A stretch of DNA of 64,000 nucleotides from Henckelia pumila (lineage: Eukaryota > Streptophyta > Magnoliopsida > Lamiales > Gesneriaceae), in assembly GCF_033568475.1 (NCBI RefSeq), contig NC_133123.1, positions 104,471,228-104,535,227 on the forward strand, read 5' to 3'. The notes below the pieces were generated by a model that did no database searches, was not told the origin of the DNA, and saw nothing but the letters and a program-made list of their open reading frames with translations. Both the position numbers and the translations under genes were made by a program. Each line of letters opens with the position of its first letter. Within the stretch, counting starts at the first letter, position 1. Positions 1 to 55,414 of this stretch are shown piece after piece.

Positions 1-2064
1 AGCTTCACTGAGCTCCATCCTTCCTTTTGGGGCTATGCACTTGAAACGGCGGTGTTGTTGTTGAACAATGTTCACACCAAAGCAGTGAATAAAACTCCAT
101 ACGAGTTATGGAATGGAAAAGCTCCTAAGTATTCGTACTTGAGGATTTGGGGATGTCCTGCTTACGTGAAGCAGACAGTGGGAGATAAGTTGGATAGTTG
201 ATCCACCTTATGTTATTTTGTAGGATATCCGAAGAATTCAATCGGATATTATTACTATCATCCTACTGAAACAAAAGTGTTTGTTTCGAGGAATGCCACC
301 TTCATGGAGAAGGAGTTTTTATTAGATAAGAAAGGAAAGATGATGGAACTCGAAGAAATTTGAGAAGAACCTGAGATACAAAATAACGATCCCACACCTC
401 AAGAACCTTCAGTGGACACGCCTACATCTAGGAGATCCGAGAGGACTTCTAGACCTCCTATTCAATATGGTCTTCCTCTTGAAGGGGATCAAAGTGAACC
501 CGACATTGGATGTGATCCAAGAAACTTCAAGGAAGCAATTTCTGATGCGGATTCAAATTTATGGCTTGATGCTATGCAGTCGGAAATAGACTTGATGCAT
601 ACAAACCAAGTTTGGTCTTTAGTAGATCCTCCCGATGGAATTGTTCCAATAGGGTGTAAATGGATCTACAAGAGAAAACTTGGGTCTGATGGAAAGGTAC
701 TAACCTACAAGGCACGATTGGTAGCAAAAGGTTATACTCAAAGACAAGGAGTCAACTATGATGAAACCTTTTCACCAGTCGCAATGTTCAAGTCCATAAG
801 AATCCTTATTGCCATAGCAGCATGGTATGACTATGAGATATGGCAAATGGATGTGAAGATTGCATTTCTTAATGGAAACATTAAAGAAGAAATCTATATG
901 ATGCAGCCCAAGGGATTCACATCCATGGGAAGCGAGCATAAGGTATGCAAGCTTCAGAGATCAATTTATGGTCTCAAACAAGCATCAAGAAGTTGGAACC
1001 AGAAATTTGATGAAACAATAAAGGACTTTGGTTTCATCATAAACCCGGAGGAACCATGCGTGTACAAAAAAGTAGTTAAGGATGCGGTGACGTTCTTAGT
1101 GCTTTATGTTGATGACATCCTACTCATTGGGAATGACGTAGGGATGTTACAGTCAACAAAGATATGGTTATCAGGTAGATTCTCGATGAAGGATTTGGGT
1201 GAGGCCTCCTATATTCTAGGGATACAGATCTATAGAGATAGATCTAAGAGAATGATAGGACTCACTCAAGCAACCTATATCGACACCATATTGAAAAGTT
1301 TTTCTATGGATGAGTCCAAGAGAGGACATCTACCTATGTGTCATGGAGTTTCTCTATCCAAGACTATGTGTCCCAAGACTGACAAAGAGATAGAGAAAAT
1401 GACACACATACCATATGCGTCAGCCATAGGTAGTATTATGTATGGGATGATATCTACCAGACCGGATGTAGCCTTTGCTCTGAGTGTCACGAGCAGATAT
1501 CAGGCCAACCCCGGTCAAATGCATTGGAAAGCCGTGAAGGATATTCTTAAGTACTTAAGAAGGACTAAGAATATATTCATGGTTTATGGAGGAAGAGAAT
1601 TGAAATTGGAAGGCTATACCGACTCTAGCTTCCAAAGTGACGTGGATGACTCAAAGTCAACCTCTGGATTTGTATTCATGCTCAATGGCGGTGCTGTCTC
1701 TTGGAAGAGTTCCAAGAAGGACACCACAGCGGATTCCACCACTGAGGCAGAATACATTGCAGCATCAGCTGCTGCTAAAGAGGCCGTTTGGATGAGGAAT
1801 TTCGTCCAAGAGTTGGGCGTAATTCCTGAAGCTATTGGTCCAGTTTCGGTGTACTGCGACAACACTGGTGCCATTGCTCAGGCAAAGGAACCAAGGTCTC
1901 ATCAAAGATCCAAACACGTACTGAGGAAATACCACATCATCCATGAGATTGTGGAAAGAGGAGACATCACTGTCGAGAGAGTGGCCTCTACAGAAAATAT
2001 CGCTGATCCACTTACTAAGCCCTTGCCAGGACCATTGTTTGACAAACATCGCGAAGCAATGTGA
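1..2064 (+). pseudogene. Ty1/copia pol, 3' part (copia A), broken
   Basis: This is the end of a copia polyprotein, entering the window within the integrase domain and running through reverse transcriptase and RNase H. The RT region shows KARLVAKGYTQ, the QMDVKIAFLNG box and an intact YVDD (about 1106-1117). RNase H follows with YTDSSF, TEAEY and CDNTGA. The frame from base 1 stays open apart from TGA at 199-201 and TGA at 361-363. In copia B both codons are CGA, so each is one C-to-T change at a CpG, as expected of methylated, silenced DNA. The terminal stop is also a few codons early compared with B. The element is dead. Its 5' half and 5' LTR lie outside the window. Confidence 0.93.
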
Positions 2065-2104
2065 TTACGTAGTATGACTAATTGGCTTTAAGGCAAGTGG
2101 GAGA

Positions 2105-4007
2105 TTGAAAGAGTGGGTGCTCGGTTAGCCAACTTGTAGCTAAGGGCTTTTATGACTCTATGTATAAAAAATCTTTGTTTAATATAATTTACATTCATTA
2201 ATGGCATTTTCTTTGTCTTTCTTCATATTGTTATATTGTGATTTACTATTGTTGTTTTGATAAAGACCTTGAATATACTATAGTGTAAGTAAGATGAGAT
2301 AATGAATAAAAAGAGATCACTATTATGAAACACATCTTATAGTCACTGTATATTCTAAACAGTTCCTAGTCAATTGAGCCGTCCGCTAATAAGGATAAGG
2401 ATCGCTCGAGATTGAGACTAGCATTTGTGATGCCAAGTACCACGTTTCATTGGTAATGGACATGAAGATGTTCAAAGCATGCAAATGGATATTCATATGA
2501 TGAATGATCGAACTACCCTATATGGACTTTCCAAGTGGTTATCACTTATCGAGTGGATAAAGTCCGCGGTTTTGGTTGTACACCATTAGTCCTTACTACT
2601 TGAAACATCATTGAGACTCTATATGCTAGTACTGTACTTTGACTCATTTATCGACTCTATTGGGGTCATCAGGTGTCGGGATTGGGTAAAGTTACGACAC
2701 ATATAGGAGTCGATGCTTTGTTGTCAAGGATTCACCACATACTTGCGAGTGTGGATATCCTATGCGATCTGAGGAGATATTAGTGTGACGAATCTCTGGC
2801 CAGAGTACATGATGTGTTTTAGGTTACTCGGTTTTCCTAGTAACACATGAGATGTCACTATTTGATCTCCAAGATGTAATGCATAGTTATCGAATCTTGA
2901 ACGACTCTCGATGCACCAATGGTTGTTGATTCGATCGGGATATATGGATGAAGGGACCGTACTGTACGCTAACCAAAATCTACTGGTTCTTGCAGGCACT
3001 ATCAGTGATACCTAGGGAATCATGGGGCGATGTTGCTAGGCGCTCTTACCATGATTCGATGGGTAAGTCGAAAATTGTTGTTCCAAGTCACAAGGAGTTG
3101 TGAGCCCACGGCTAGCTATATCCCTGAACCATTGAGGGTCACACAAGTAATGGATTACTAAACCCCGTTGAGATAGTTAAATTTAAAGAGTTAAATTTAA
3201 TGAAAGATAAATTGGACTTCTTAACTAAAAGGGAGTGGAATTTCCTAAAATGACATAGGGATGGGCATTTTTGGAAATCACTGAATTCGGATTCAGAAAA
3301 ATTATCTTGACTTCAAAATATGCAGAAATGGTTTTTGTGCACATTGGTAAAATCAGTTTATCAATCGGAGTCATGATGAATTTTATATTAATTTCTATAA
3401 TAACAGGCTTGGCTTGTTGGGCTTAAGTTATGGATTGTGGGCCCTAAGGAGTTAGAGTCCTAATACAATTATAATTTAATCTAGTCTAGAAATTATCTAT
3501 AAATACATGTGTAGTGTTCGAAAATTAGACACAATTCCTCTTGCAATTTTCGAATTACACACATATATTTTCAAGGGGATTTTTCGAAAATCCTCTACTC
3601 CTTTTTGAGATAATTCAGTCTGTGATTTTTCTGAAAAATTACATTCTGAATTGACAGATCAAATCTGTTTAATCTCTTCGGTAAACATCTGATTGATTTC
3701 TAGTGCAATCAATCAGAGGGTTTCTGTTTTCTATTCGTGGACCTAATTTCGGAGATTGATCGAGCAAGTCATCGGTTCCCGGGATTTACAAGAAGAGCAG
3801 ATTAAATTCTGTTGGAGTCCAAAATCAAGCCTTAGCTTGAAGAGGTAAAAATATTTAATTGTGAATTTATATTTTTACTTGCAAGATTTTAATCGTTAGG
3901 ATTTGATACCCACGATATGGAATCGTTCCATATCAAAAATAAAATTTTTAAAACTTTCGCTGCTCCGGGTATCACATCCGTGTGATCAGAGAACGCGTGT
4001 TCCAACA
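2105..4007 (+). repeat. 3' LTR of copia A
   Basis: It starts TTGAAAGAGTGGGTG just after a purine tract (GGCAAGTGGGAGA) and ends in TTCCAACA, the same ends as the copia B LTRs, with which it is colinear but clearly diverged. Length is about 1.9 kb. Gypsy gag sequence (host H) starts at once at 4008, so copia A inserted into H just upstream of its gag start. Confidence 0.88.
3498..3505 (+). promoter_or_regulatory. TATA box of copia A LTR
   Basis: TATAAATA lies about 1.39 kb into the LTR. GTGGGCCC (a TGGGCC-type motif) lies about 50 bp upstream. The same arrangement occurs in copia B, so this is the likely U3 promoter, with U3 of about 1.4 kb and R-U5 of about 0.5 kb. The transcription start is not determined. 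Confidence 0.55.
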
Positions 4008-5152
4008 AGAATAACTTGGCCCTTGATTCCGAATCTGAAGATGAGTTTGAAGATATGGCTGAAGACGAGAATAACTGCACTTTGATGGACATTCATCGAT
4101 CATTGGTTGGAGGATATTGATCCAGCATTGTTCGCTCTACAGTTCAGGCGAACATTTTTGAGCTTAAATCATCCATCATCCAGATGATTCAAATGCAAGT
4201 TAGATTTGGAAGGGTGCCTTCTGAGGATCCGAATGCTCATCTGGATCAATTCTTGTCAATATGTGACACCTTCAAATTTAATGGAGTGACTACTGATGCT
4301 ATTCGGCTGAGGCTATTTCCATTTTCTCTACAAGGAGAAGCGATAGAGTTGGCTTCGAGATTTACCAGAAGGATCGATTACTAGCTGGGATGGTCTGGTT
4401 GAAGTCTTTATGCATAGGTATTTTCCACCAACTAAATTTACACAACTGCGGAATGAAATCATGTCTTTTAGCAGAAGGATGGGGAATCATTGAATGCAGC
4501 ATGGACAAGATTCAAAAAGATGTTGAGGGTGTGTCCTGTACATGGGCTATCAGTAGGCCAACAAGTAGAGACTTTCTACTATGGAGTTGATTCATCTGTG
4601 CGCTCTATGCTTGATGCAGCTGCCAATGGAAGTCTTTATAGGAACACTCCAACCGCAGCACTTGAAATCATATCGAATTTGGCTGAAAGTAATGTGGGTT
4701 GGCTACAACAATAGAGAAAAGAAAGTCGTACTGCAGGCAAATAAGTCGACACCATTAAAATAGGTGAATCATGTCCAAGGAAACACTGAAGCGATAGGAG
4801 AACCAACAAGTAATGTTCCATTCATGCCAGATGTATTTTTTTGAAGGGATGCCATTTTTCGATGAATTATGTGGAGAACCAAGGGCGAAAATAGTATAAT
4901 CCATTCAGTTTCTCATATAATTCGATTTGGAAAAATCACCCAAATTTTAGGTGGAACCAAGCTGAAAATTCGGTTGAGCCACAATATTTAAATCCTCCTC
5001 AACAGCCTACACAGCAAAGGCCCCCTCAGCAAGTAGTTAAACCTCCACAAAGTGTTGGACCTTCTATGCCACCGGGTTTCAAACCATTTGAGAATAAGTC
5101 AAGTTTGGAAGATATGCTTGCTACATAGCTGGGAACGAGATGAGATGGCAGA
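4008..5152 (+). pseudogene. Athila/Tat-like gypsy gag, piece 1 of host H
   Basis: These are degraded gag remains. Recognisable stretches are FGRVPSEDPNAHLDQFLSIC (4205-4264) and, in other frames, a segment with CPVHGLSVGQQVETFYYG and an NGSLYRNTP motif (4530-4650), typical of the retrotransposon gag domain of Athila/Tat elements. Several frameshifts and stops break it. It is cut at 5152 by the copia B insertion. The reading continues at 14727, where a methionine-rich coiled segment (MIQRMETQLGKLENQ) follows SLEDMLAT at 5104-5127, as in the homologous stretch of the 14.9-kb gypsy element. It was once part of a much longer element whose RT and LTRs are not seen here. Confidence 0.85.
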
Positions 5153-7020
5153 TTGAAAGAGTGGGTGCCCAGTGAGCCAACTTGTGGCTATGGGCTTTGA
5201 TGACTCTTTGTACAAACGATCTTTTGTTTAATGTAATTTACACTTTTATTAATGGCAATGACTTTATCTTTCTTCATATTGTTATATTATGATATACTAT
5301 TGTTGTTTTGATAAAGACCTTGAATATACTATAGTGTATGTAAGATGTGGTAGAACATGGGGATGTCTATCATGAAATACATCTTATAGTCACTGTATAT
5401 TCTAAACTGTTTCTAGTCGATTGAGCCGTCCGATAATAAGGATAAGGATCGCTCGAGTTTGAGACTAGCATTTGCGATGCGGAGTACCACGTTTCATTGG
5501 TAGGGAACATGGAGATGTTCGAAGCATGCAAATGGATATTCATAGGATGAATAATCGAACTACCCTATCCGGACTTTCCAAGTGGTTATCACTTATCGAG
5601 TGGATAAAGTCCGCGGTTTTGGTTGTACACCATTAGTCCTTACTACTTGAAACATCATGGAGACTCTATATGCTAGTACTGTGCTTTGACTCGTTTACCG
5701 ACTCTATGGGGGTCATCAGGTGTCGGGATTGGGTACAGTTACAACACATATAGGAGTCGATGCATTGTTGTCAAGGATTCACCACATACTTGCGAGTGTG
5801 GATATCCTATGCGATCTGAGGAGATATTAGTGTGACGAATCTCTGGCCAGAGTACTTGATGTGATTTAAGAAATGGTTTCTTAGTAGCACATGCGATGTC
5901 ACTAATTTGATCTTCAAGATGTATTGCATAGTTATCGAATCTTGAGCGACTCTCGATATACCAATGGTTGTTGATTCGATCGGGATATATGGATGAAGGG
6001 ACCGTACTGTACGCTAACCAAAATTTACTGGTTCTTGTAGGCACTATCAGTGATACCTAGGGAATCATGGGGCGATGTTGCTAGGCGCTTTACCATGATT
6101 CGTTGGGCAAGTCGGAAATCGTTGTTTCGAGTCACAAGGAGTTGTGAGCCCACGGCTAGCTGTATCCCTGAACCATTGAGGGTCACACAGTGTAATGGAG
6201 TTTTAATCCCCGTTGAGATAGTTAAATTTAAAGAGTTAAATTTAATGAATAAAGAAGTTGGACTTCTTAAATAAGAGTAAGGGAGTAGGATTTCCTAAAA
6301 TGACATAGGGATGGACATTTTTTGGAAATCACTGAATTCGGATTCAGGAAAATTTATCTTGACTTTAAAATGTGCAGAAATGGTTTCTGTGCACATTGGT
6401 GAAATCGGTTCATCAATCGGAGTCACGATGAATTTTATATTAATTTCTGAACATGCGGGCTTTGCTTGTCGGGCCTCAACTTATGACTAATCGGCCCTAA
6501 GGTGTTAGTGGCCTGCATTATAAATAAGTTATTGCAGTACAGAAATTACAAACAACTGGTCATAATTTGAGAGACAGAAAATCGAAAACCCTAGCTCTCT
6601 CTCAAAAGAAATTCGGCCGCCCCCTCCCTTCTCTGCGTGAGAAATTTCGGTCTGTGATTTTGAATTGCAGTCTGGAATAGCGAATCAAATTCGTTTATTC
6701 TCTTCGTAGAAAACTTCTGATAGATTTTCTAGTGCAATCTATCAGAGGGATTAAACCTCCATTCGTGGACCTGATTGAAGGAAAGCTTGTTCATCAGTTC
6801 CAGGGAGATACAAGAAGCGCAGAGAAATCTGTGTGGTGTCCAATAATCTCGCTTCGAGATTGAAGGTAAAATTTAATAATAGTTATTTAATTTTACACAC
6901 ACAAATAATTTAATCGTATGGTTGATACCCACACTATGGAATTGTTCCATACTAAAAATTTTAAACTTCCGCTGCACCGGGTATCAATCGTGATTGATCT
7001 GAGAGCCGCGTTTTCCAACA
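5153..7020 (+). repeat. 5' LTR of copia B
   Basis: It ends in the canonical ...CCAACA, and the primer site follows one base later. The 5-bp target duplication fits only if the left end is TTGAAAG rather than TGAAAG, giving an unusual TT...CA pair of ends. It contains a TATA box and, around 6580, GAAAACCCTAGC, a telo-box-like motif downstream of it. Open frames within the LTR (for example 5739-6044 on the minus strand) recur identically in the 3' LTR and are not genes. Confidence 0.93.
6519..6526 (+). promoter_or_regulatory. TATA box of copia B 5' LTR
   Basis: TATAAATA follows a GC-containing stretch with TCGGGCC and CGGCCC. The same box occurs at 14224-14231 in the 3' LTR and at the equivalent place in copia A. 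It is the likely start signal for the genomic RNA, whose 5' end would fall about 30 bp downstream. Confidence 0.6.
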
Positions 7021-7021
7021 G

Positions 7022-7034
7022 TGGTATCAAAGCC
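7022..7034 (+). other. Primer binding site, initiator-Met tRNA type (copia B)
   Basis: TGGTATCAAAGCC begins one base after the LTR end. It matches the usual copia site TGGTATCAGAGC, complementary to the 3' end of initiator methionine tRNA, with one mismatch (A for G at the ninth base). Confidence 0.88.
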
Positions 7035-7150
7035 AGGTTGCTCAGATCAAACGATTAAATTAATCGATTGTACAAAAATTTTTGAGTCTTGGTTTTTTAA
7101 AACAAAATAAATATTTTAAATAAAAAAAAAAATTTTTTTCGGGCAAAACC

Positions 7151-7403
7151 CGGGCAGCGATTGGATCGCTGCCCGGTGGGGCAGCGACGGTCGCTGCCCC
7201 GGGCGGCGCACGGCGCCGCCCAAAGGGGGCGCACAGCACCGCCCACGGCGGCGCACGTCGCTGCCCTGCGCAGCGCTCGGCGCTGCCCAGGGGCGGCGCC
7301 AGGCGCCGCCAGGGCAGCGATTGTCGCTGCACTAAAGGGGCAGCCGGGCTGCCCCGGCCCGCGCCCACGGGTGCGGGCCGGCCCGGGAGTGTCCCGGGCG
7401 GCC
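7151..7403 (+). repeat. Array of about 11 GC-rich hairpins in copia B leader
   Basis: Short inverted repeats are set end to end. Examples are 7151-7175 (arms CGGGCAGCGA/TCGCTGCCCG), 7178-7200 (GGGGCAGCGA/TCGCTGCCCC, 3-base loop), 7201-7221 (GGGCGGCGC/GCGCCGCCC), 7333-7355 (GGGGCAGCC/GGCTGCCCC) and 7355-7380 (12-bp arms with one G-T pair). The arms differ between modules but change together, so pairing is kept. GC content is extreme compared with the AT-rich DNA on both sides. It lies about 130 bases into the RNA downstream of the primer site. Function is unknown. Confidence 0.85.
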
Positions 7404-7656
7404 CGCGGGAAAAATTATTTTTTTTATTTAAATTAATTTTAATGTGTTAAAATTTTATTTTTGGTTCGGTCAAAAATTGTTTTTGATTGGTTCACGAGGC
7501 ATCGGATCGAATTGTTCGAGTCCGAAAATTTTAAAATTGATTTTTGGATAAATTTGAATTTTTGGAAAATTTTAATATTTTATCCTTAAATTGAATTTTG
7601 AAATCAATTATTTTTGGTACAATTGATGATAAGATTTGATCTTATGTATATATTAA

Positions 7657-7778
7657 GTAAAATATGATTTTATCTATAAAATTAGATTCTTTAGATAAAA
7701 TATGATTTTATTTAATAAAAGGTAAAATATGATTTTATATGTAAAATATGATTTTATATATAAAATATGATTTTATCC
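7657..7778 (+). repeat. Five copies of an AT-rich 16-mer in copia B leader
   Basis: TAAAATATGATTTTAT, itself a near-palindrome, occurs five times with spacers of a few to about 20 bases. It is a local tandem expansion in non-coding leader, and no function can be read from it. Confidence 0.8.
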
Positions 7779-7927
7779 TGTTTAAATTTAAATTGCCATA
7801 TGCATGATATCCAATAAATTAATTTTGAATTAAATGTTATTGGATAAGGATGATCGATTGCCATGACCAATTTTGTAGGTGTATGTTAGGAATTTACATT
7901 TGTTTTATTGTTGTTGGTTTTATTAAT

Positions 7928-7990
7928 GGGCCTGGTTTATGGCCCAATATGAATGTCATATGTAATAAAAGAGGGCTTGGTTTATGGCCC
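7928..7990 (+). promoter_or_regulatory. Two GGGCC...GGCCC dyads with TGGGCC motifs
   Basis: GGGCCTGGTTTATGGCCC (7928-7945) and GGGCTTGGTTTATGGCCC (7973-7990) are two near-identical copies of an interrupted dyad. They hold TGGGCC/TGGCCC motifs of the site II class bound by TCP factors. A role is inference; they may simply be part of the leader repeats. Confidence 0.45.
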
Positions 7991-8465
7991 GTTCCCACCC
8001 CTAAAATGTATCCCCTACTTGTCATTGCTATTTATTGTAAATACATTAGATTTAGTGGGAGATCAAGATTTGAAGATGGAGGTGGGCCCAGCAGACAATA
8101 AAGACGAAGAAATGTAAATTGGAAGCTAATGTAATAGGATTGCATTGCATACTGCATATTACCTAGGATTGGACTAAGACTCGTGATTGGCAACCACGAG
8201 TCAATTAGAAATGGAATCGATCATCCTATATATAATATATGATATTATGATTGTATGCATGTTTTAGACATAATTGCGTGAATCCGGCAAGCATGCAATA
8301 ATTTGAAATTGATGAGACAAATTTTTTATAATTAAAAATCCCTCATTTTAAATATGATTTAAAATTGATATCAAGATAAATAAAGGAAATTTAAATTTGT
8401 TTAAATATTCCTACCTTCCATCAACGGTCAATGTATGAGATGCTACCCGCGGATACGGTCCGGCT

Positions 8466-8741
8466 CATATTATTGGGGGGGCCCGTCCGTCGGAAAGCTG
8501 TACATTGGATCGACACATGTTGTAAGTTGGGTGGAACTCCCATGGGATCGGCTCATATTATTGGGGGATCCACATGGCGACCGTCCATCACAACTTAATA
8601 TTGATGGGTCATCTTGACATGTCACTATAAACGGCGTCATATTATTGGGCCCTTATTGGACATGAGGTAAAAACATGGGGGTTGCTTTGGAAGCAATTGG
8701 GCTCTACCTTTTGAGAATTATGGTTGGCTGATATTATTCGG
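8466..8741 (+). repeat. Dispersed ATATTATTGGG repeats in copia B leader
   Basis: The word CATATTATTGGGG or a close variant occurs at about 8466, 8553, 8638 and 8728, twice preceded by CGGCT, with spacings of about 85-95 bases. These are decayed tandem units of about 90 bp in the non-coding leader. Confidence 0.65.
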
Positions 8742-8907
8742 GACCATAAGTTTGTCAATTGGACTCCATGTTCTCACTAAGGAAAAAGTTTCCCGTTTTC
8801 ACTAGAGGGTAGTGAAATCGTTAAAATAGTGGGAGTGAGATTCATAAAATTAAATTCGCCTATTTTATGTCTTAGTAAATTGCTTAAACAATCATTGATA
8901 TGTCTGT

Positions 8908-8919
8908 TTTTCTTTTCAG
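8908..8919 (+). promoter_or_regulatory. Candidate 3' splice site just before copia gag
   Basis: TTTTCTTTTCAG, a long pyrimidine tract ending in CAG, lies 11 bases before the gag ATG at 8931. It looks like a plant intron acceptor. If used, most of the 1.9-kb leader with its hairpins and upstream ATGs would be spliced out of the gag-pol mRNA while kept in genomic RNA. No donor could be chosen with confidence. Confidence 0.45.
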
Positions 8920-8930
8920 TATTTCATACA

Positions 8931-11900
8931 ATGAATTCGCGTAATCCATTATTCTCGATCCTCGAACAAAACAAGTTGACTGGCGCAAACTATACGGAAT
9001 GGTTCCGGAAGTTGAAGATTGTCTTGACTTCGGAGAAGATGCTCTACATGTTAGAGAAATCACCTCCGAAGGAAGCACCAGCTGACGTAAGTCCGGAGGA
9101 ATTGGCCAAACTTGATGCATGGTGGGACCATGACATCAAGACCAAATGCTATATGCAAGCCTCGATGTCTGATGAACTCCAGAGGCGATTTGAGGACACC
9201 GTGAATGCTGCTGACATTCACGCTCAACTCAAGGAACTTTTTGGGGCTCAATCGAGGGCTGAAAGGTTCGCTACTGTTAAGGAGCTAATGACGTGTCGCA
9301 TGCGTGAAGGGACTTCGGTCCGTGATCATGGGGTACGAGTGATTTGGCTCATACAGAAGTTAGCAACTCTTGATTTGGTGTTGGAGCATGAACTCAACGT
9401 GGATTTACTGCTTCTGTCTCTTCCTTCTTCGTTTGACGGATTTGTGGTAAATTTTAATATGAACAAGATAGAGGCCACCCTTGAAGAGATGGTCAATATG
9501 CTTGTGACATATGAATCCACACTAAAGAAGGATAAACCAGCTTTCTTGGTGGGCTCCTCATCTTCTGCTAAGAAGGGGCCAAGTACGAAGGGTAAGAAAC
9601 GTTCTGCCCCACCCAAGAAAGTCAAACCCGAGAAGAAGCACAAGACAAAGGCTTCAAACAATGGAAAATCCAAGGATGTTTGCCATTACTGCAAGAAGCC
9701 CGGTCATTGGAAGCGCAACTGCAAGGAATATCTAGAGCAGTTGGGAACTGCAAAGGGTATGTTCTATATTGAAATAAACATTTCACTTAATACTACTTCT
9801 TGGGTATTGGATACCGGATGTGGATCTCACATTTGCAATGATTTGCAGGTGATGACAAGAAGTCGCAGACTTAGAATGGGTGAGACCCAGCTGAGGCTCG
9901 GGAATGGTTCCAGAGTTGAAGCTACAGCCATTGGAGATGTTTGTTTAATTTTGCAGAACGGTTTTAAGTTATTTTTAAGAGATGTTTTATTTGTTCCGGA
10001 TTTAATTAAAAACATTATTTCTGTTTCTATGCTAGATAGAGATGGTTATTCTTGCAATTTTATGAATGGGATTTGCAATATTTACAAGAATGAATGTTTG
10101 ATTGGAAATGGACAACTTGAAAACGATCTATACAACTTAAAACTAAAAGACGTTCCAATAAATTATGTTGATAAACCGGCGACAACAAACAAAAGGAAAA
10201 TCGATAGTCAAAACCCGGCAAACCTTTGGCACGCTAGACTAGGTCATATTTCCTCAAGGAGGATGAACAAGCTAGTGGGAGAGGGCATGTTTGATATGTC
10301 TGATATTAACTCTCTACCTACTTGTGAATCCTGCCTAAAAGGGAAAATGACTAAATCTCCTTTTAAGGGGAAACCTGAGCGTAGTCAAAATCTGTTGGAT
10401 TTGATCCATACAGATGTTTGTGGTCCATTTAGAGTTGGGACTCAACATGGCCACACCTACTTCATTACCTTTACTGATGATTATTCAAGGTATGGGTATT
10501 TATATTTAATGAAATATAAGTCTAAAGCATTTGAAAAGTTCAAAGAATTCAAGGCTGAAGTAGAAAACAAGCTATGTAAAAGTATTAAAGCACTTCGATC
10601 GGATCGAGGTGGAGAATACTTGAGTACCGAGTTTTTGGACTATCTAAAAGAGAATGAGATTCTCTCTCAGTGGACTCCTCCTATGACACCACAGCTGAAT
10701 GGTGTATTGGAGCGTCGTAATCGAACTTTGTTGGACATGGTTCGATCCATGATGAGCTTCACTGAGCTTCCACCTTCGTTTTGGGGCTATGCGCTTGAAA
10801 CGGCGGTATTGTTGTTGAACAACGTCCACACTAAAGCAGTGGACAAAACACCATACGAGTTATGGAATGGCAAAGCTCCTAAGTATTCGTACTTGAGGAT
10901 TTGGGGATGTCCTGCTTACGTAAAGCGGACAGTGGGAGATAAGTTGGATAGTCGATCCAGCTTATGTTATTTTGTAGGGTATCCGAAGAATTCAATCGGA
11001 TATTATTTCTATTATCCTGCTGAAACAAAGGTGTTTGTTTATAGGAATGCCACCTTCTTGGAGAAGGAGTTCTTATTGGATAAGAAAGGCGAGATGATGG
11101 AACTCGAAGAAGTTCGAGAAGAACCCGAAATACAAAATAACGATCCTACGCCTCAGGAACCATTACTGGACACGCCTGAACCTAGAAGATCCGAGAGGAC
11201 TTCTAGACCTCCTGTTCGATATGGTCTTCTTCTTGAAGGGGATCAAGATGAACCCGACATTGGATGTGATCCAAGAAACTTCAAGGAAGCAATTTCTGAT
11301 GCGGATTCAAATTTATGGCTTGAAGCTATGCAGTCTGAATTGGATTCAATGCATACAAACCAAGTTTGGTCTTTAGTAGATCCTCCTGATGGAATTGTTC
11401 CAATAGGGTGTAAATGGATCTACAAGAGAAAGCTTGGGCCTGATGGTAAGGTATTGACCTACAAGGCGCGATTGGTGGCGAAAGGTTACACTCAAAGACA
11501 AGGAGTTGACTATGATGAAACCTTTTCACCAGTTGCAATGTTCAAGTCCATAAGAATCCTTATTGCCATAGCTGCATGGTATGACTATGAGATATGGCAA
11601 ATGGATGTGAAGACTGCTTTTCTTAATGGAGACATTAAGGAAGAAATCTATATGAAGCAGCCGGAGGGGTTCACATCCATGGAAAGAGAGCATAAGGTAT
11701 GCAAGCTTCAGAGATCAATTTATGGTCTAAAACAAGCATCAAGAAGTTGGAACCATAAATTTGATGAAACAATAAAAGATTTTGGTTTCATCAAGAACCC
11801 GGAGGAACCGTGCGTGTACAAGAAAGTAGTTAAGGATGCTGTGACATTCTTAGTACTTTATGTTGATGGCATCCTACTCATTGGGAATGATGTAGGGATG

Positions 11901-12845
11901 TTGCAGTCAACAAAGATATGGTTATCAAGTAGATTCTCGATGAAGGATTTGGGTGAGGCATCCTACATTCTTGGGATACAGATCTATAGAGATAGATCTA
12001 AGAGAATGATAGGACTCACTCAATCAACCTACATCGACACCATATTGAAACGGTTTTCAATGGATGGGTCCAAGAGAGGACATCTACCCATGTGTCATGG
12101 AGTTTCTTTATCCAAGTCTATGTGTCCCAAGACTGATGCAGAGATAGAGAATATGACACATGTACCATATGCGTCAGCTATAGGTAGTATCATGTATGGG
12201 ATGATATCTACCAGACCGGATGTAGCATTTGCTCTGAGTGTCACGAGCAGATATCAGTCTAATCCTGGTCAAATGCATTGGAAAGCCGTGAAGGACATTC
12301 TTAAGTACTTACGAAGGACTAAGAATATGTTCATGGTATATGGAGGACGAGATCTGAAATTGGAAGGCTATACCGACTCTAGCTTCCAAAGTGACGTGGA
12401 TGACTCGAAGTCAACCTCTGGATTTGTGTTCATGCTCAATGGCGGTGCTGTCTCTTGGAAGAGTTCCAAGCAGGACACCACAGCGGATTCCACCACTGAG
12501 GCTGAATACATTGCAGCATCAGCTGCTGCTAAAGAGGCCGTTTGGATGAGGAAGTTCGTCCAAGAGTTGGGCGTCATTCCTGAATTTGTTGGTCCAGTCC
12601 CGGTGTACTGTGACAACACGGGTGCCGTTGCTCAAGAAAAGGAACCAAGGTCTCATCAAAGATCCAAACACGTACTGAGGAAATACCACATCATCCGGGA
12701 GATTGTGGAAAGAGGAGACATCACTGTCGAACGAGTGGCCTCTGCAGACAATATCGCTGATCCGCTTACTAAGCCCTTGCCAGGACCATTGTTTGACAAA
12801 CATCGCGAAGCAATGGGTCTACGTAGTATGACTAGTTGGCTATAG
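8931..12845 (+). CDS. Copia gag-pol polyprotein, 1304 codons, RT motif YVDG
   Basis: This is a single unbroken frame. The open frame extends upstream to 8829 but without an ATG, so the ATG at 8931 is the start. In order: gag domain (about residues 1-240), lysine-rich linker, CCHC zinc knuckle CHYCKKPGHWKRNC (251-264), aspartic protease with DTGCGSH (from 294), integrase zinc motif starting LWHARLGH (His 434) and CESC, integrase core with HTDVCGPF, RSDRGGEY and LERRNR, reverse transcriptase, and RNase H with YTDSSF, TEAEY and CDNTGA. The polyprotein would form virus-like particles in the cytoplasm and copy RNA into DNA. One key residue is off: the catalytic YVDD box reads YVDG (11859-11870; GGC at residue 980). 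Copia A has GAC there. The frame is intact, yet RT is probably crippled unless helped in trans. Confidence 0.95.
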   Translation: MNSRNPLFSILEQNKLTGANYTEWFRKLKIVLTSEKMLYMLEKSPPKEAPADVSPEELAKLDAWWDHDIKTKCYMQASMSDELQRRFEDTVNAADIHAQLKELFGAQSRAERFATVKELMTCRMREGTSVRDHGVRVIWLIQKLATLDLVLEHELNVDLLLLSLPSSFDGFVVNFNMNKIEATLEEMVNMLVTYESTLKKDKPAFLVGSSSSAKKGPSTKGKKRSAPPKKVKPEKKHKTKASNNGKSKDVCHYCKKPGHWKRNCKEYLEQLGTAKGMFYIEINISLNTTSWVLDTGCGSHICNDLQVMTRSRRLRMGETQLRLGNGSRVEATAIGDVCLILQNGFKLFLRDVLFVPDLIKNIISVSMLDRDGYSCNFMNGICNIYKNECLIGNGQLENDLYNLKLKDVPINYVDKPATTNKRKIDSQNPANLWHARLGHISSRRMNKLVGEGMFDMSDINSLPTCESCLKGKMTKSPFKGKPERSQNLLDLIHTDVCGPFRVGTQHGHTYFITFTDDYSRYGYLYLMKYKSKAFEKFKEFKAEVENKLCKSIKALRSDRGGEYLSTEFLDYLKENEILSQWTPPMTPQLNGVLERRNRTLLDMVRSMMSFTELPPSFWGYALETAVLLLNNVHTKAVDKTPYELWNGKAPKYSYLRIWGCPAYVKRTVGDKLDSRSSLCYFVGYPKNSIGYYFYYPAETKVFVYRNATFLEKEFLLDKKGEMMELEEVREEPEIQNNDPTPQEPLLDTPEPRRSERTSRPPVRYGLLLEGDQDEPDIGCDPRNFKEAISDADSNLWLEAMQSELDSMHTNQVWSLVDPPDGIVPIGCKWIYKRKLGPDGKVLTYKARLVAKGYTQRQGVDYDETFSPVAMFKSIRILIAIAAWYDYEIWQMDVKTAFLNGDIKEEIYMKQPEGFTSMEREHKVCKLQRSIYGLKQASRSWNHKFDETIKDFGFIKNPEEPCVYKKVVKDAVTFLVLYVDGILLIGNDVGMLQSTKIWLSSRFSMKDLGEASYILGIQIYRDRSKRMIGLTQSTYIDTILKRFSMDGSKRGHLPMCHGVSLSKSMCPKTDAEIENMTHVPYASAIGSIMYGMISTRPDVAFALSVTSRYQSNPGQMHWKAVKDILKYLRRTKNMFMVYGGRDLKLEGYTDSSFQSDVDDSKSTSGFVFMLNGGAVSWKSSKQDTTADSTTEAEYIAASAAAKEAVWMRKFVQELGVIPEFVGPVPVYCDNTGAVAQEKEPRSHQRSKHVLRKYHIIREIVERGDITVERVASADNIADPLTKPLPGPLFDKHREAMGLRSMTSWL

Positions 12846-12858: not shown

Positions 12859-14726
12859 TTGAAAGAGTGGGTGCCCAGTGAGCCAACTTGTGGCTATGGG
12901 CTTTGATGACTCTTTGTACAAACGATCTTTTGTTTAATGTAATTTACACTTTTATTAATGGCAATGACTTTATCTTTCTTCATATTGTTATATTATGATA
13001 TACTATTGTTGTTTTGATAAAGACCTTGAATATACTATAGTGTATGTAAGATGTGGTAGAACATGGGGATGTCTATCATGAAATACATTTTATAGTCACT
13101 GTATATTCTAAACTGTTCCTAGTCGATTGAGCCGTCCGATAATAAGGATAAGGATCGCTCGAGTTTGAGACTAGCATTTGCGATGCGGAGTACCACGTTT
13201 CATTGGTAGGGAACATGGAGATGTTCGAAGCATGCAAATGGATATTCATAGGATGAATAATCGAACTACCCTATCCGGACTTTCCAAGTGGTTATCACTT
13301 ATCGAGTGGATAAAGTCCGCGGTTTTGGTTGTACACCATTAGTCCTTACTACTTGAAACATCATGGAGACTCTATATGCTAGTACTGTGCTTTGACTCGT
13401 TTACCGACTCTATGGGGGTCATCAGGTGTCGGGATTGGGTACAGTTACAACACATATAGGAGTCGATGCATTGTTGTCAAGGATTCACCACATACTTGCG
13501 AGTGTGGATATCCTATGCGATCTGAGGAGATATTAGTGTGACGAATCTCTGGCCAGAGTACTTGATGTGATTTAAGAAATGGTTTCTTAGTAGCACATGC
13601 GATGTCACTAATTTGATCTTCAAGATGTATTGCATAGTTATCGAATCTTGAGCGACTCTCGATATACCAATGGTTGTTGATTCGATCGGGATATATGGAT
13701 GAAGGGACCGTACTGTACGCTAACCAAAATTTACTGGTTCTTGTAGGCACTATCAGTGATACCTAGGGAATCATGGGGCGATGTTGCTAGGCGCTTTACC
13801 ATGATTCGTTGGGCAAGTCGGAAATCGTTGTTCCGAGTCACAAGGAGTTGTGAGCCCACGGCTAGCTGTATCCCTGAACCATTGAGGGTCACACAGTGTA
13901 ATGGAGTTTTAATCCCCGTTGAGATAGTTAAATTTAAAGAGTTAAATTTAATGAATAAAGAAGTTGGACTTCTTAAATAAGAGTAAGGGAGTAGGATTTC
14001 CTAAAATGACATAGGGATGGACATTTTTGGAAATCACTGAATTCGGATTCAGGAAAATTTATCTTGACTTTAAAATGTGCAGAAATGGTTTCTGTGCACA
14101 TTGGTGAAATCGGTTCATCAATCGGAGTCACGATGAATTTTATATTAATTTCTGAACATGCGGGCTTTGCTTGTCGGGCCTCAACTTATGACTAATGGGC
14201 CCTAAGGTGTTAGTGGCCTACATTATAAATAAGTTATTGCAGTACAGAAATTACAAACAACTGGTCATAATTTGAGAGACAGAAAATCAAAAACCCTAGC
14301 TCTCTCTCAAAAGAAATTCGGCCGCCCCCCTCCCTTCTCTGCGTGAGAAATTCCGGTCTGTGATTTTGAATTGCAGTCTGGAATAGCGAATCAAATTCGT
14401 TTATTCTCTTCGTAGAAAACTTCTGATAGATTTTCTAGTGCAATCTATCAGAGGGATTAAACCTCCATTCGTGGACCTGATTGAAGGAAAGCTTGTTCAT
14501 CAGTTCCAGGGAGATACAAGAAGCGCAGAGAAATCTGTGTGGTGTCCAATAATCTCGCTTCGAGATTGAAGGTAAAATTTAATAATAGTTATTTAATTTT
14601 ACACACACAAATAATTTAATCGTATGGTTGATACCCACACTATGGAATTGTTCCATACTAAAAATTTTAAACTTCCGCTGCACCGGGTATCAATCGTGAT
14701 TGATCTGAGAGCCGCGTTTTCCAACA
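12859..14726 (+). repeat. 3' LTR of copia B
   Basis: It is colinear with 5153-7020. Differences seen include C/T at 13086, T/C in the GTTCCTAG stretch, C/G in CTAATGGG, G/A in GGCCTACA, and one-base changes in a T run near 14025 and a C run near 14325. It ends CCAACA, and the GCAGA target copy follows. Confidence 0.93.
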
Positions 14727-14862
14727 GCAGAATCATGATGCCATGATTCAAAGAATGGAGACCCAATTGGGAAAGTTGGAGAACCAGTTCGCTACAGGGC
14801 GCTAGGATCACTTCCTAGTGACACAGAAAAGAATCCAAAGGGCGTCAATGCAGTCATAGTAG
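14727..14862 (+). pseudogene. Athila/Tat-like gag, piece 2 of host H
   Basis: After the GCAGA duplication, the gag of H resumes with the coiled MIQRMETQLGKLENQ segment and then, frame-broken, the NPKGVNAVIV-type motif (to about 14862) seen also in the 16.2-kb gag. It stops exactly where the next element's primer site starts, and continues at 20049. Confidence 0.82.
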
Positions 14863-39724: not shown

Positions 39725-40296
39725 TTTATTGGTATCAGATCATGCAATAGGATTTTTGGGACATAGTGTTAAGATTATTTGGTGATCCTTGTAGGGATGA
39801 TGAGACATTAGAGGTGATGATGATGAGGCGATTGGGTTGCCCGAAGACTATCATCATCGGAATAATTTTCAAAAGCTCTTATGGGATTTCAGCAAGATCG
39901 GACATGAGAGAAGGATCGTGTTCGAGATATCATGATTTTGACTCATGTGGATCCTAGCTTTGGATCGAGTACCAGATGTCAGAGGCACTGGAAGAGGATT
40001 GGTTATGACATGTGTGATGCTTGCATCTATCTCGTTCGACCAGGATAACACTTCTCTGAAGATTCTCTACAAACAGTTGGAGAGATTATCATAAAGGTCT
40101 TATCTCGTCTACCGGAGAATATACTATATAACAGTAAAGTACCCGGTAGATTAGTATGGATATTTTGGAGATCGTGGGGAAATAGGTCTGTCAAGCATGC
40201 TTGTATTCATGCTTTCGAGGTGACAGACAGAAAACTTCACGTTCAATACCAGTTGACGGAATGAAAGACTTTCGCATGAACTTGGGTCTTAAATAC
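39725..40296 (+). other. Non-coding interior of the gypsy element, left part
   Basis: It starts after the 38056 LTR. No gag domain is recognised in any frame. It ends with AATAC (40292-40296), the target copy of the tandem array. The interior resumes at 58125. Confidence 0.6.
39730..39739 (+). other. Primer binding site, initiator-Met tRNA type
   Basis: TGGTATCAGA, five bases after the LTR end, matches the first ten bases of the usual TGGTATCAGAGC site. Confidence 0.75.
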
Positions 40297-43006
40297 TAAA
40301 ACGTCCTAAACTTCTAAATTTCTAAAATGCGGAAAATTTAAAATTTTTTTTTTCTTTTAAAATAAATACTAAGTAAAATATATATACATATATGCCCATA
40401 CATATATGTACAACAATAAAAGAGATTTAAAATTTTATAAATAATTATGCAACATAAAAATAATTACTAAAACGTCTGAATCATGCAATACTTAAAATAA
40501 TTCAAAACAATTTAATCAACAGTGCATACACTAAAAAGTTGCATAAAAATAATACTTAAATCTCAACACTGGAATAAAATCTTCAAATAAAATAGTGTTT
40601 AAAATATTCATGCATAGAACACTAGCACGATGCAGACTACGGTCACGGGGCCACTGCAGCTTCGCTCATACGTCTTCACCACCGGTAGGGGTAACCTGCT
40701 CCTCTACGTACTCACCTGCACCATATCAGTGTAGTGAGCCTAGAGGCCCAACATGCATACTAACAAGGGTTTAAAATAATTTAATACACTTTCATACATA
40801 ATACTTATCCTATAAATGCATGGGCATGCTTCAAAAATAATAACATAAATGTTGCTTAAAGAAATCACTGAATTATACATAACATACATAATATCATACA
40901 TACTTGAGTTGTTGAGCACTTATTTTCTTAACATCGAATGGTCCTATCCGTAAATGTGACCCATACTTATAGTGCGACTGATCAGTCTAAGAAACCATCG
41001 TACGAGGCTGGTGGCGAACCACCCATACATAAATGGCAGAAACTGCCCATACATAAATGGCCACACTAATTCAATTTCCACCTAAAATATTTTATTTGCT
41101 CAACCATAGAACTTCAATCATAGCATAAAAATTGATTTCATGAATGCATGTACTTAAATAAATTGTGTGTCCTTCATTTATATTTAATTTATTTTCTAAT
41201 ATCATATAAATATTCAAATAACTTTTCATGCATAAAATAATTAAATATAAACTCAGGACACATGCAATTTCTCATGGTTTGATTCAACTGCTGGCCCTAG
41301 ACATACAAGCCCATTAACTTAAGACTTGGCCCATTAGTGTACTTAAGCCCATTAACAACTTTTCTAGGCCCAATAAATCAACCAAAGCCCATTAAGACTA
41401 ACTTAGGCCCAATAACACTGTCCCTGGCCCAATGGGCCCAAAAGCCCAATAACAGGCCCAATAACTTTCATGGGCTCCCAAGCCCATAAAAATTTCTGGC
41501 CAACTTAAAAATTTAAATAAAAATTAATAAAAGCCCAAAAATAATTAAATTAACCCAAAATAATTTAATGGAGCCCAAATAAATTAAATGGTACTAATTA
41601 AATTTTTGGGAATTTAATTAGCCCATTTAACTCCTAATTAACTTAAAAACTTAAAAATAAAAATACCCGAGCCCAATTAAAATAACCCGGACCCGGACCC
41701 AACTAACTTAACCCATATTATTTTAGACCCGACCCGGACCACATGACCCGACCCGGATCCACCAACAACCCAAAAACCCGAAACCCTATTCTTCCCTCTT
41801 CCCCCTTGTCGCGGCCGCACGAGCAGCAGGCCTTCATGGCCTGCTGCAGCCCAGCTCCGACCACCGTGGCCGGAGCCCCGCCGGCAGGACCTCCCCAGGG
41901 TCCTGCCGGTTCGAACCATGCCCTGGCCCGAACCCCATGCTGCCTCCTTCCCCAACACCGAACCCTCTTCCAAGACAACCCTAACCTGCGCGCCCATGGC
42001 TTCCCTTCTGAAACTCGATCGGCCGTGACTCCTAGCCCCAACCCAGCCAAAGCCGACCCATCTAGACACTCTAGGGACCCCGTAGGACCTAGCCAGCAGC
42101 CCCCTTCAAGCCATGGATAGTAAAAACGTGAGCATGAACATCACAAAGCCAAAACCGAGTGCATAAGAGAAAGAATTTGAAAACTTGCTGTCAAAAATGA
42201 TAGATCTCGATGCTACACACCCACACACATACATACACTGATATAGGATTGAAAAGAGAAGAAAATCATGCCTTTCACCGTAGACGAAGAGAAAAACCGA
42301 AAGCGAGACGATTCCGGGACGACGGGGCGACGACGATGAACTTTGGACCTTCAAGACCGAGGCTATGGAGTTTTCTTGGGGATGACTGGCCGAAGAAGAT
42401 GAATATTGAATGGGGTTGGCGGCTGAGCTTAGGGAAATCGTGGGTTTGGGTAGCTTAGGGTTAGTCTAGGTTTTTTAGTTTTAATTAAAAAAATAGGTTT
42501 TAGGATAATGAAATAATAATTAAAAGTTTTAAATATAAAACATAAAATTTTAAAACTTTAAATATAAGTTACAATCTGATAATTTAAATTAAAAATACAA
42601 AAATCCTGAAATTACAAATTTAGGGAATTTTAAAAATACTAAAAAGTCAATATTTTGGCTTATTTTGAATAAAAATGGACTCCTAAAATTATATAAAATT
42701 AAATACTTAAATTTTTGAGATAATAAAACTCAAAATAATATTTTAGGGCTCTAAAAAGGCTCATAAAATAATTTGGGTGGAAAGTTGTCATCTCGTCCGT
42801 CCACGGTCCCGTCTACGCGATCAAAACAATTAATTAAAATACTAAAAATCCTAAAAATCACTAATTATGGGTTAAATGCTTAAAAATAAATTAAATCATG
42901 CACAAATAATTCACATAATTATTTAACCCATAAATCTAAAATTTAAATAATTAAATATCCTAATTATGCATACGGATTTACGTATTTAAAAATACCGTGT
43001 GTTACA
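40297..43006 (-). repeat. LTR 1 of the tandem array (downstream LTR in sense)
   Basis: 2710 bp. In sense it runs TGTAACACAC ... GGACGTTTTA; here the first CCGG of the family is CCGTG, a private change. Sense-strand order: AT-rich part, a telo-box-like TTAGGGTTAG near 42456-42465, a GC-richer part with repeated CCCGACCCGG, a site II cluster, and an AT-rich tail. Frames seen in it repeat in all three LTRs and show no domain. Confidence 0.92.
41308..41675 (-). promoter_or_regulatory. Cluster of about 16 TGGGCY (site II) motifs in LTR 1
   Basis: On the sense (minus) strand the words TGGGCC and TGGGCT recur about sixteen times in 368 bp, often as TTATTGGGCC or TTAATGGGCT. One forms the palindrome TGGGCCCA near 41433. 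Such site II motifs bind TCP factors in promoters of cell-cycle and ribosomal-protein genes. A telo-box word AAACCCTA lies near 41782. Regulation of the LTR by TCP proteins is inference. Confidence 0.7.
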
Positions 43007-43020
43007 ATTCTCCCCCCCTT
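43007..43020 (-). other. Polypurine tract, body 1
   Basis: Sense AAGGGGGGGAGAAT directly before the LTR start TGTAACAC. The same tract stands at 50567-50580 in body 2. Confidence 0.85.
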
Positions 43021-43051
43021 AAATTGAATTTCGTCCTCGAAATTAAAGTAC

Positions 43052-46000: not shown

Positions 46001-46425
46001 ACATCCATGGCGCAATAATTTCCTCGCACGAACAAGTGATATCATCTGAGGAATACTGCTAGACTGAGATGCAAAGAAAGTAAACATCTCACCTCCTGCT
46101 GGCTTCACTGACACTGTCCTACGTCGGAAATCAATCGAAGCTCCATTAACTGATAGCCAGTCCATACCCAAAATCAAGTCAAACCCAGTCAATGGAAGAA
46201 CCACTAGATCTGCTCGAATGGAGTGTCCCTGCAACTCCAATTCCAGATCCCTGATGACACTAGTGGTAGTGATAGTCTGTCCGGATGACATGGTAACATC
46301 GTAACCACAGTCGACAACCTCCGGTGTAATGCCTATCCGTCTGATAAAATCTCGGGAGATAAACGAATGCGTGGCTCCTGAATCTAGCAACGCAAACGTG
46401 GAGTTGCCTCCAACTAGAATTCTCC
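43052..46425 (-). CDS. Gypsy pol, body 1 (protease-RT-RNase H-integrase-chromodomain)
   Basis: An open frame from the predicted splice acceptor at 46425 to the stop at 43052, about 1124 codons. There is no ATG at its start, which fits a spliced gag-pol fusion. Domains: protease [12 protein letters not shown] near the N-terminus; RT with FVDD-type box [11 protein letters not shown]; RNase [16 protein letters not shown]; integrase zinc-finger H-H-C-C ending [12 protein letters not shown]; integrase core [15 protein letters not shown] and [12 protein letters not shown]-terminal [16 protein letters not shown], the tail of a chromodomain. This is a Del/Tekay-like chromovirus. The frame is unbroken. 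Several residues differ from body 2 at places where body 2 looks more family-like (for example VGLLRS against VGLPRS). Confidence 0.92.
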
Positions 46426-46620
46426 CTGCACGCAGAAGATTCTCAACAATTCATACCACTACGCTCCCAAGGTTAAAACACTACAATCCTTAATTCTAAT
46501 CACAAAGAAACAAAATTCTTATTCTAGCATGCTGATAGTTAAACTCAAGTAACAGGCATTCAGATATAATCGCAATAAGCAAAAGCAAAGAATTGAAAAA
46601 GTTCTAGGGGTTAGGTATAC
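46426..46620 (-). other. Predicted intron between gag and pol, body 1
   Basis: Sense donor ACCG/GTATAC and acceptor GCGTGCAG/GGAGA bound 195 AT-rich bases. Joining keeps the frame (T-G-R-I-L-V-G-G) and links the gag zinc-knuckle exon to protease. Unspliced RNA meets a TAG six codons into the intron. Splicing could thus set the ratio of Gag to Gag-Pol. An identical arrangement is at 53986-54180. Confidence 0.75.
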
Positions 46621-47668: not shown

Positions 47669-47840
47669 TCTGCACCACCACATATTACTTTACATAAATC
47701 GCCATGCATAACTAAGTGGTTTAAAAGTAATGCTAACTTAAATTCAAAGAATTAAATCATGCTATAAACACTTAAAACTTACAGACCGGTAGCGTGGATT
47801 TCTGAGCTAGCATAGCAGTAATGACCCCTCCAAGAACCGT

Positions 47841-47852
47841 GCTCTGATACCA
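47841..47852 (-). other. Primer binding site, initiator-Met tRNA type, body 1
   Basis: Sense TGGTATCAGAGC, two bases after the end of LTR 2 (GGACGTTTTA). Perfect match to the common site. Repeated at 55401-55412. Confidence 0.93.
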
Positions 47853-47854
47853 AC

Positions 47855-50566: not shown

Positions 50567-50611
50567 ATTCTCCCCCCCTTAAATTGAATTTCGTCCTCGA
50601 AATTAAAGTAC

Positions 50612-53985: not shown

Positions 53986-54180
53986 CTGCACGCAGAAGAT
54001 TCTCAACAATTCATACCACTACGCTCCCAAGGTTAAAACACTACAATCCTTAATTCTAATCACAAAGAAACAAAATTCTTATTCTAGCATGCTGATAGTT
54101 AAACTCAAGTAACAGGCATTCAGATATAATCGCAATAAGCAAAAGCAAAGAATTGAAAAAGTTCTAGGGGTTAGGTATAC
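53986..54180 (-). other. Predicted intron between gag and pol, body 2
   Basis: Same donor and acceptor as in body 1, 195 bases, no change at either splice site. Confidence 0.73.
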
Positions 54181-55412: not shown

Positions 55413-55414
55413 AC

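Follow-up and report, generated by a model that had tools for sequence, protein, structure and literature searches.

The retroelement and its leader

The window, i.e. the whole stretch of 64,000 nucleotides of Henckelia pumila DNA that was analysed, contains a Ty1/Copia retrotransposon (Table 1). The assignment is based on the presence of gag, on an integrase that precedes the reverse transcriptase within one polyprotein, and on LTRs with a short target site duplication (TSD). The LTRs are 99.47% identical over a match of 1,877 columns, and the 5-bp TSD, GCAGA, is found at 5148-5152 and 14727-14731, which bears out the original prediction of a young element. The single unbroken gag-pol frame encodes the Pfam domains Retrotran_gag_2 (residues 29-202), gag_pre-integrs (421-473), rve (491-587), and RVT_2 (810-1054). 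Gag and LTR length suggest that the element may belong to the Angela lineage of Copia, and the primer binding site is presumably of the initiator Met tRNA type. Directly upstream is an older element, which belongs to a sister family and has its 3' end at positions 1-3992 of the window and its 5' part in a locus referred to here as L106.

Some further structures were noted in the surroundings. Just before the primer binding site, the LTR contains a nested stem pairing 6922-6930 with 6979-6987 (TTGATACCC/GGGTATCAA) and enclosing another of 6935-6941 with 6945-6951 (TATGGAA/TTCCATA). The nested stem is also found in the sister LTR, where its outer part is one pair shorter. Elsewhere in the window, Gypsy-type elements form a row at 40295-58125, in which 40295-50567 and 47853-58125 overlap and are 99.3% identical; 40295-43007 is found again at 55413-58125, and the elements thus share repeats, as recombination could leave them.

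Table 1. Features of the young Copia element and its leader (window coordinates)
Feature	Position	Strand	Evidence
5' LTR	5153-7020	+	Self-BLAST of the window; ends and TSD read from the sequence
TATA box TATAAATA	6519-6526	+	Sequence; transcript start assumed about 25-30 nt downstream
Predicted exon 1, untranslated, ATG-free	6544-6865	+	ATG count against shuffles; no ATG in 26 of 30 copies
Predicted leader intron, 2,054 nt, with 49 ATGs, the primer site and all hairpins	6866-8919	+	Splice signals across copies
Primer binding site TGGTATCAAAGCC	7022-7034	+	Sequence
GC-rich hairpin array	7138-7411	+	Folding, GC profile, genomic copies
Hairpins of the array	7150-7176, 7178-7200, 7201-7221, 7224-7244, 7246-7266, 7268-7288, 7291-7311, 7312-7332, 7337-7355, 7354-7381, 7381-7399	+	Sequence and folding
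Centre of the array with fast turnover, length 81-106 nt among 30 copies	7222-7311	+	Copy comparison
Set of four hairpins, 5' GG bulge, loop CATATTATTGG (last one GATATTATTCG)	8450-8753	+	Folding, repeat search, copies
Single GG-bulge hairpins, the third degenerate	8450-8489, 8538-8577, 8622-8661, 8714-8753	+	Folding
gag-pol ORF, 1304 aa; its ATG is the first in the predicted spliced RNA	8931-12845	+	ORF and Pfam
3' LTR	12859-14726	+	Self-BLAST of the window

A hairpin array downstream of the primer binding site

The array is an island of 80% GC in a leader that otherwise has 22-31% GC. Within 7150-7399, eight hairpins arranged head to tail pair perfectly over arms of 7-12 bp around loops of 1-3 nt, and three imperfect ones complete the series: that at 7224-7244 is poorly paired, that at 7246-7266 has one G.T and two mismatches among nine pairs, and that at 7354-7381 has a 13-bp stem with one G.T. 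About eleven short inverted repeats had been predicted at this place, and both their number and the arm pairs quoted are found in the sequence. The predicted proximity to the primer site also holds, because the array starts 104 nt after it; the distance compared between the families is 116 nt in the window copy and 121 nt in L106.

The stretch 7150-7411 folds far more stably than its dinucleotide shuffles (n = 200), a comparison that had been suggested with the original prediction. The z-score is -9.6 without span limit and -9.8 if pairs are restricted to 30 nt, with energies of -216 and -194 kcal/mol compared to -180 and -147 for the best shuffles. The minimum-energy fold without span limit is a long stem across modules together with the outer hairpins, and not a series of eleven separate hairpins. 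A long, imperfect stem of this kind might feed Dicer, which would make the array a source of small RNAs, or it might serve as a structure by which ribosomes are shunted to gag. Weak matches to Rfam, one of them to a miRNA model, point in the same direction, but within 6500-9000 nothing came near a gathering score, and we regard both roles as very improbable. A shunt past the array would not reach gag because 47 of the 49 ATGs of the leader come after the array; the two preceding it share one stop at 7058.

Nine modules can be aligned on the pattern GGGC(A/G)GCG(A/C) ... (T/G)CGC(T/C)GCCC, the last one being shortened. It had been claimed that the two arms change together and that pairing is never lost. 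The first part applies to the two of nine pair columns that vary on both sides in the window copy, and an exact permutation of the right arms among the eight full modules gives P = 0.034 (0.048 with G.T counted as paired); the remaining columns do not behave in this way. The second part does not hold: 70 of the 79 pair cells of the nine modules are Watson-Crick pairs, one is G.T, and eight are mismatches. One of the mismatched modules combines a left arm of one type with a right arm of the other.

Turnover of the array among genomic copies

A search with 7100-7450 yielded 40 scored matches from 3,307 candidates, each covering the full query at 90-100% identity. From these, 30 loci including the window copy make up the copy set, and all 30 were used. 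The divergence between the copies is low, with a median of 0.77% over 5600-8899 (66 bins of 50 nt), and has two hotspots near 10%. One of these, 6550-6649, comprises the first 100 nt past the presumed transcript start (about 10% divergence between copies versus a median of 0.8% elsewhere). The other one, 7250-7299, is the centre of the array, whose substitution rate of 9.8% is about 13 times that of the median bin.

Seven hairpins are stable in length and comprise 71 pairs, or 2,130 cells in the 30 copies, with the bases 7354, 7355, and 7381 entering the count twice because adjoining stems overlap. Sixty-one cells have changed, 20 to G.T, 39 to a mismatch, one to Watson-Crick, and one to a gap. 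Not a single cell of the 2,130 has changed on both sides, a result of little power given the low divergence. Substitutions are not rarer in stems (1.4%) than in loops (0.8%), and amount to 1.7% in the 3' flank and 3.9% in the 5' flank.

While the outer hairpins are stable, the centre (7222-7311) is altered by whole units, which are gained, lost, and exchanged. A comparison of module numbers had been proposed together with the original prediction; the change of length and content in steps of entire units is what duplication and exchange are expected to produce, and it tells against the covariation claim. Coupling between the arms was assessed on distinct modules. The 19 central ones comprise four A-T, six A.C, four G.T, and five G-C (Fisher P = 1), and the 27 of the whole array nine A-T, seven A.C, five G.T, and six G-C (P = 0.70). 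For the nine of the 5' part the numbers are four A-T, no A.C, one G.T, and four G-C (P = 0.048). If every copy is counted the centre reaches P = 0.003 and the whole array a far lower value, but those copies are related. Covariation, originally taken to suggest that the fold has been kept, can thus not serve as proof of a selected fold. Nevertheless, the centre folds better than its shuffles in all 30 copies (z between -1.8 and -7.2).

These data have to be weighed against a serious rival to any function of the array, namely the neutral turnover of palindromes. GC palindromes would arise and be perfected by slippage and by template switching of the polymerase or the reverse transcriptase, and the intron would tolerate them. 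Paired changes then need no selection because one template switch rewrites both arms together; template switching has been proposed for RNA hairpins (PMC8794818; here as below, statements on published work refer to the parts of the papers available). We consider neutral turnover a real possibility. It is in agreement with the uncoupled arms of the distinct central modules, with the lack of two-sided changes in the stable hairpins, with the fast change of the centre, and with the further multi-copy hairpins of the same leader described below. The stability of the outer hairpins speaks against it.

The array in the sister family and in other relatives

A search with 4560-5030 of L106 gave 40 scored places from 5,595 candidates, and 21 sister arrays were examined, comprising L106 and about 0.2 kb around the array at 20 of the other 39 places. 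The array of L106 has its own set of hairpins with the core arms GGGCAGC/GCTGCCC. All 21 stretches fold strongly, with z-scores from -5.7 to -13.4, to which the included AT-rich flanks may contribute, and five to nine hairpins are predicted in each. Among 20 distinct modules the pair beside the core is G-C in seven, A-T in five, A.C in four, C-G in three, and G.A in one. Some modules of the sister family have, as judged from their sequences, changed on both sides, and the A/G by C/T part of the table gives a Fisher P of 0.034; mismatched modules (A.C) are common. The search for compensating changes thus has a divided outcome, with none in the stable hairpins and signs of them in the 5' part of the array and in the sister modules. 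Similarly, the proposal that the folded form has been kept is supported by the folding of all copies and all sister arrays, but hardly by covariation.

The leaders of the two families are 82-89% identical in BLAST pieces outside the array. The constant position of the array in both of them, and the folding retained in all 51 arrays examined, are not what neutral turnover would lead one to expect.

One or two CACGTG palindromes, which we take to be the plant G-box, are present in the sister arrays (L106, L140-L159). They would suit a role at the DNA level, in which regulatory palindromes or a CpG island downstream of the promoter bind proteins, as has been proposed for the repeated motifs of Sireviruses. 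The 43 CpG of the array would suit it as well, with an observed/expected ratio of 0.99 versus 0.64 in the coding region; however, the LTR and the remaining leader reach 0.89 as well, and a high value is expected of any GC palindrome. The Sirevirus motifs are many short palindromes in 8-32 copies that form CpG islands, and 12 of the 13 elements listed have the CGG-CCG type (PMC2829016). Like the array they belong to plant Copia elements, and the motif of a sorghum element resembles the GGGCGGC module (PMC2829016, Table 3). The CGG-CCG core occurs in the GGGCGGC/GCCGCCC modules but not in the GGGCAGC/GCTGCCC modules. According to the part of that paper available, Sirevirus motifs sit in the LTRs or before env, whereas the array is located in the leader between the primer site and gag, and its modules have arms of 7-12 bp, can fold as RNA, and lie inside a predicted intron (PMC2829016). 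Regulation at the DNA level therefore appears improbable to us. In the mostly open-access literature, as far as the available parts of the papers go, we found no hairpin array of such kind in a Copia leader, the Sirevirus motif being the closest match.

Two sister families are known to carry the array. More distant relatives were obtained by a search of the host genome with gag, in which 131 scored matches and 30 loci led to families A and B and one further type, and from L073, a plant-type Copia element with a 52% identical gag-pol in a record labelled Streptomyces clavifer. L073 lacks a GC island, with no 100 nt of its first 2,500 nt exceeding 45% GC, and it has no GC-rich perfect hairpin of at least 8 bp. 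No array is present in one copy of family A (L137 together with L114), followed from its primer site up to gag; a stretch with 54-57% GC folds weakly (z = -1.0 and -2.4), and just past the primer site the z-score is -1.4. L131 has no array between primer site and gag either, with at most 37% GC and z-scores of -0.1 and -0.9 in 485-1100. In family B the part seen, the 1,500 nt before gag, reaches at most 42% GC. Because the array is absent in L073, the family A copy, and L131, it is not essential to the lineage, and this absence again agrees with neutral turnover.

The Copia sequences in L073, L074, and L075 (records labelled Streptomyces, Labilibacter, and Bradyrhizobium) are probably plant contamination, and the same is probable for two plant-type Copia matches in plasmids (H1 and H2, Streptomyces camelliae and Kitasatospora cathayae). 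The plasmid collection contains Copia-type pieces, of which the two best start at query residue 352 and hold no part of the leader, and it gave no match to the DNA of the array. No relative of the Copia polyprotein was found in three scans of viral contigs, and no Copia-type match in the phage collection. The module pattern in 72 viral contigs, with at most one module per 300 nt in each, was taken as chance.

A predicted intron in the leader

The original prediction had noted that the hairpins would block scanning ribosomes unless spliced out. Splice signals indeed predict a leader intron that spans the whole array, and we consider it probable that this intron is real. The 322 nt from 6544 contain no ATG compared to 5.4 in shuffles (P = 0.001), and are followed at 6866 by the donor AAG/GTAAAATT (the slash marks the splice site). 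The intron ends in TCTGTTTTTCTTTTCAG, and the gag ATG follows 11 nt past the acceptor. Thirteen of the 14 bases before the acceptor CAG are pyrimidines, the highest value among the 623 CAG of the plus strand; two other CAG share this value, and the one at 8919 is the most T-rich of the three. The donor GT is intact in all 30 copies and exon 1 is free of ATGs in 26. The acceptor CAG is also present in all of them, in 23 copies in the form TTTTTCTTTTCAG together with the gag ATG, and in seven (L080, L081, L088, L098, L100, L102, and L105) in the sister-like form TTTCATCTCAG without a gag start. No match to the predicted exon junction was found in the genome when up to three mismatches were allowed, but such copies need not exist.

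The same layout is seen in the relatives. The sister LTR in the window retains the donor and the ATG-free exon (P = 0.0005) at only 74% identity there, and L106 has a 322-nt exon without ATG, a donor at 4521, an acceptor at 6392, and 38 ATGs in the intron. In L073, exon 1 is 161 nt long and free of ATGs (P = 0.0115) and is followed by the donor CAAG/GTATGG; the intron contains 53 ATGs, its acceptor lies 6 nt ahead of gag, and the primer site is found at 624. In L074, from another bacterial record, TTTATTTCAG immediately precedes the ATG. The acceptor is found 4 nt before gag in 21 of the 24 copies of family A (L107-L130), 5 nt before it in all four copies of family B (L133-L136), where it was read by eye, and 7 nt before it in L131; L132 is not among the loci judged. 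The ATGs used for L114, L133, and L131 are in frame with gag. Family A has the donor AAAG/GTAATC 138 nt before the primer site, and no ATG begins in 1008-1242 of L137. Taken together, a CAG with at least nine pyrimidines in the preceding 14 bases lies within 11 nt of the gag ATG in seven of seven families, while only 3.8% of the 2,663 ATGs of the window have such a CAG within 12 nt. At the level of sequence signals, copies and families alike keep a donor site in the LTR and an acceptor site immediately upstream of gag.

Splicing is predicted to remove the primer site, the array, and the 49 upstream ATGs, and to join an ATG-free leader to gag. If, and only if, the intron is real, the array would be restricted to the unspliced, genomic RNA. 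According to a review from 2025, plant LTR elements are generally without introns, Ogre and EVADE being notable exceptions, and splicing of BARE1 is mentioned (PMC12786077). Sunflower elements with spliced introns have been reported (PMC7730604). In the available parts of the mostly open-access literature we found no leader intron of a plant Copia element, the intron positions of the sunflower elements (PMC7730604) being outside this comparison.

Hairpins with a GG bulge and other leader repeats

Four hairpins near gag represent a second candidate structure. They are built from a lower stem, a 5' GG bulge, an upper stem, and a six-base loop, and copies of the loop motif are found at 8461, 8549, 8633, and 8725, a spacing of 84-92 nt. 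The third hairpin decays: among the 23 copies of the family that were read at this place, eight show a further change in the lower stem. Hairpins built in this way also occur in L073 at 1763, 1857, 1928, and 2162, and a descriptor scan added a fifth (region 1750-2189). The two sides of the lower stems change together, and in the eight GG-bulge hairpins of the window and L073 31 of 32 lower-stem cells are paired compared to 21.25 in permutations, where P = 0.0003 (0.0024 without the third copy of the window) is optimistic because the pairing of the arms was already apparent when the hairpins were picked and because the copies within a family are related. Taken one by one, only three of the eight fold better than shuffled sequence, by a margin above 2.3 or of about 2.2 standard deviations. 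A descriptor that demands five lower pairs detects three hairpins in the part of the window leader downstream of the array (shuffle mean 0.32, maximum of 500 shuffles three) and five in L073 (mean 0.31, maximum four); in the whole window it finds 15 on the plus and seven on the minus strand. Covariance models built from the hairpins of one family detected none in the other; one model (R2) had a single pair, of columns 21 and 25, set wrongly. Kinship between the hairpins of the two families is therefore based on fold, position, and copy number only.

Further repeats were observed in the leaders. Four repeated GG-bulge hairpins with a conserved loop are also present shortly before gag in L106 (5925-6225). 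The small repeated hairpins that precede gag in families A and B are of other types and do not follow the GG plan. A second, AT-rich array at 7655-7778 consists of five near-identical palindromes (TAAAATATGATTTTA), which are mostly missing from the sister copy. The small hairpin GGGCYTGGTTTATGGCCC is found twice, at 7928-7945 and 7973-7990, and both have counterparts in the sister leader, one of which is altered.

Possible functions of the leader structures

The array units are predicted to form stable hairpins in every copy examined, with number and sequence shifting by whole units. The hairpin-forming state is thus kept while sequence and unit number are not, which fits loose selection on structure and also the renewal of palindromes by template switching. 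The reading that we prefer, with somewhat less than even confidence, is that the array consists of fast-evolving palindromic units in the leader intron of a Copia element, which act as bulk structure in the unspliced RNA. The spliced RNA, with its ATG-free leader joined to gag, would be the mRNA. The unspliced RNA would be the genome for reverse transcription and the sole carrier of the primer site, the hairpins, and the upstream ATGs. In this RNA the hairpins would most likely act by their mass of structure and with loose demands on sequence, either by aiding dimerisation or packaging through their self-complementary stems, or by keeping splicing and translation of the unspliced RNA low. Slippage and template switching at the palindromes would create and renew the units. 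Confinement to unspliced RNA, as expected of a packaging signal, is predicted for the array from the splice signals.

Such a structural role is slightly favoured over neutral turnover because position and folding persist in two families. However, neutral turnover stays close because the array is absent in more distant relatives and the arms show no coupling. The seven of 30 copies that have no gag ATG after the acceptor also count against the preferred reading, as do the substitutions in stems, which are no rarer than those in loops and close in frequency to those of the 3' flank.

Comparable systems are known. In Ty1 the self-complementary sequences PAL1 and PAL2, which are involved in dimerisation, are likewise located near the primer site of a Copia-type genome, with the packaging region nearby (PMC8396678). 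Ty1 has two named palindromes and a pseudoknot in its first 580 nt, whereas here about eleven GC hairpins with turnover of modules are found (PMC8396678). BARE1 and BARE2 of barley are also Copia elements with an untranslated leader, and BARE has separate RNAs for translation and packaging (PMC3735527). BARE2 is without a gag start codon, as are the seven copies with the sister-like acceptor (PMC3735527). BARE differs in relying on two TATA boxes and on a 104-nt intron located where gag ends, while here an intron of 2 kb in the leader is predicted to remove the primer site and the leader structure (PMC3735527). The hairpin elements of sponge mitochondria are also families of short hairpins, two of which differ by a few complementary substitutions, and the paper, in the part available, leaves the choice between recent spread and constraint (PMC2800124). 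Those elements reside in intergenic DNA of an organelle, the array in the leader of a retrotransposon (PMC2800124).

A more far-reaching scheme, which we put forward as a speculation and regard as rather unlikely in full, would be that a lineage of plant Copia elements keeps a leader intron that starts in the 5' LTR and stops a few bases short of gag, that splicing makes the mRNA unfit for reverse transcription, and that the hairpins of the intron, the GC array as well as those with the GG bulge, label the genome RNA for the particle-forming Gag. The array itself provides a measured example of covariation that is apparent between the modules of one sequence but largely fails once the comparison is extended to copies. 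How transcripts are shared between translation and replication is a major question for retrotransposons (PMC3735527). Removal of the primer site with a conserved leader intron would, if true, be a simple answer to it.
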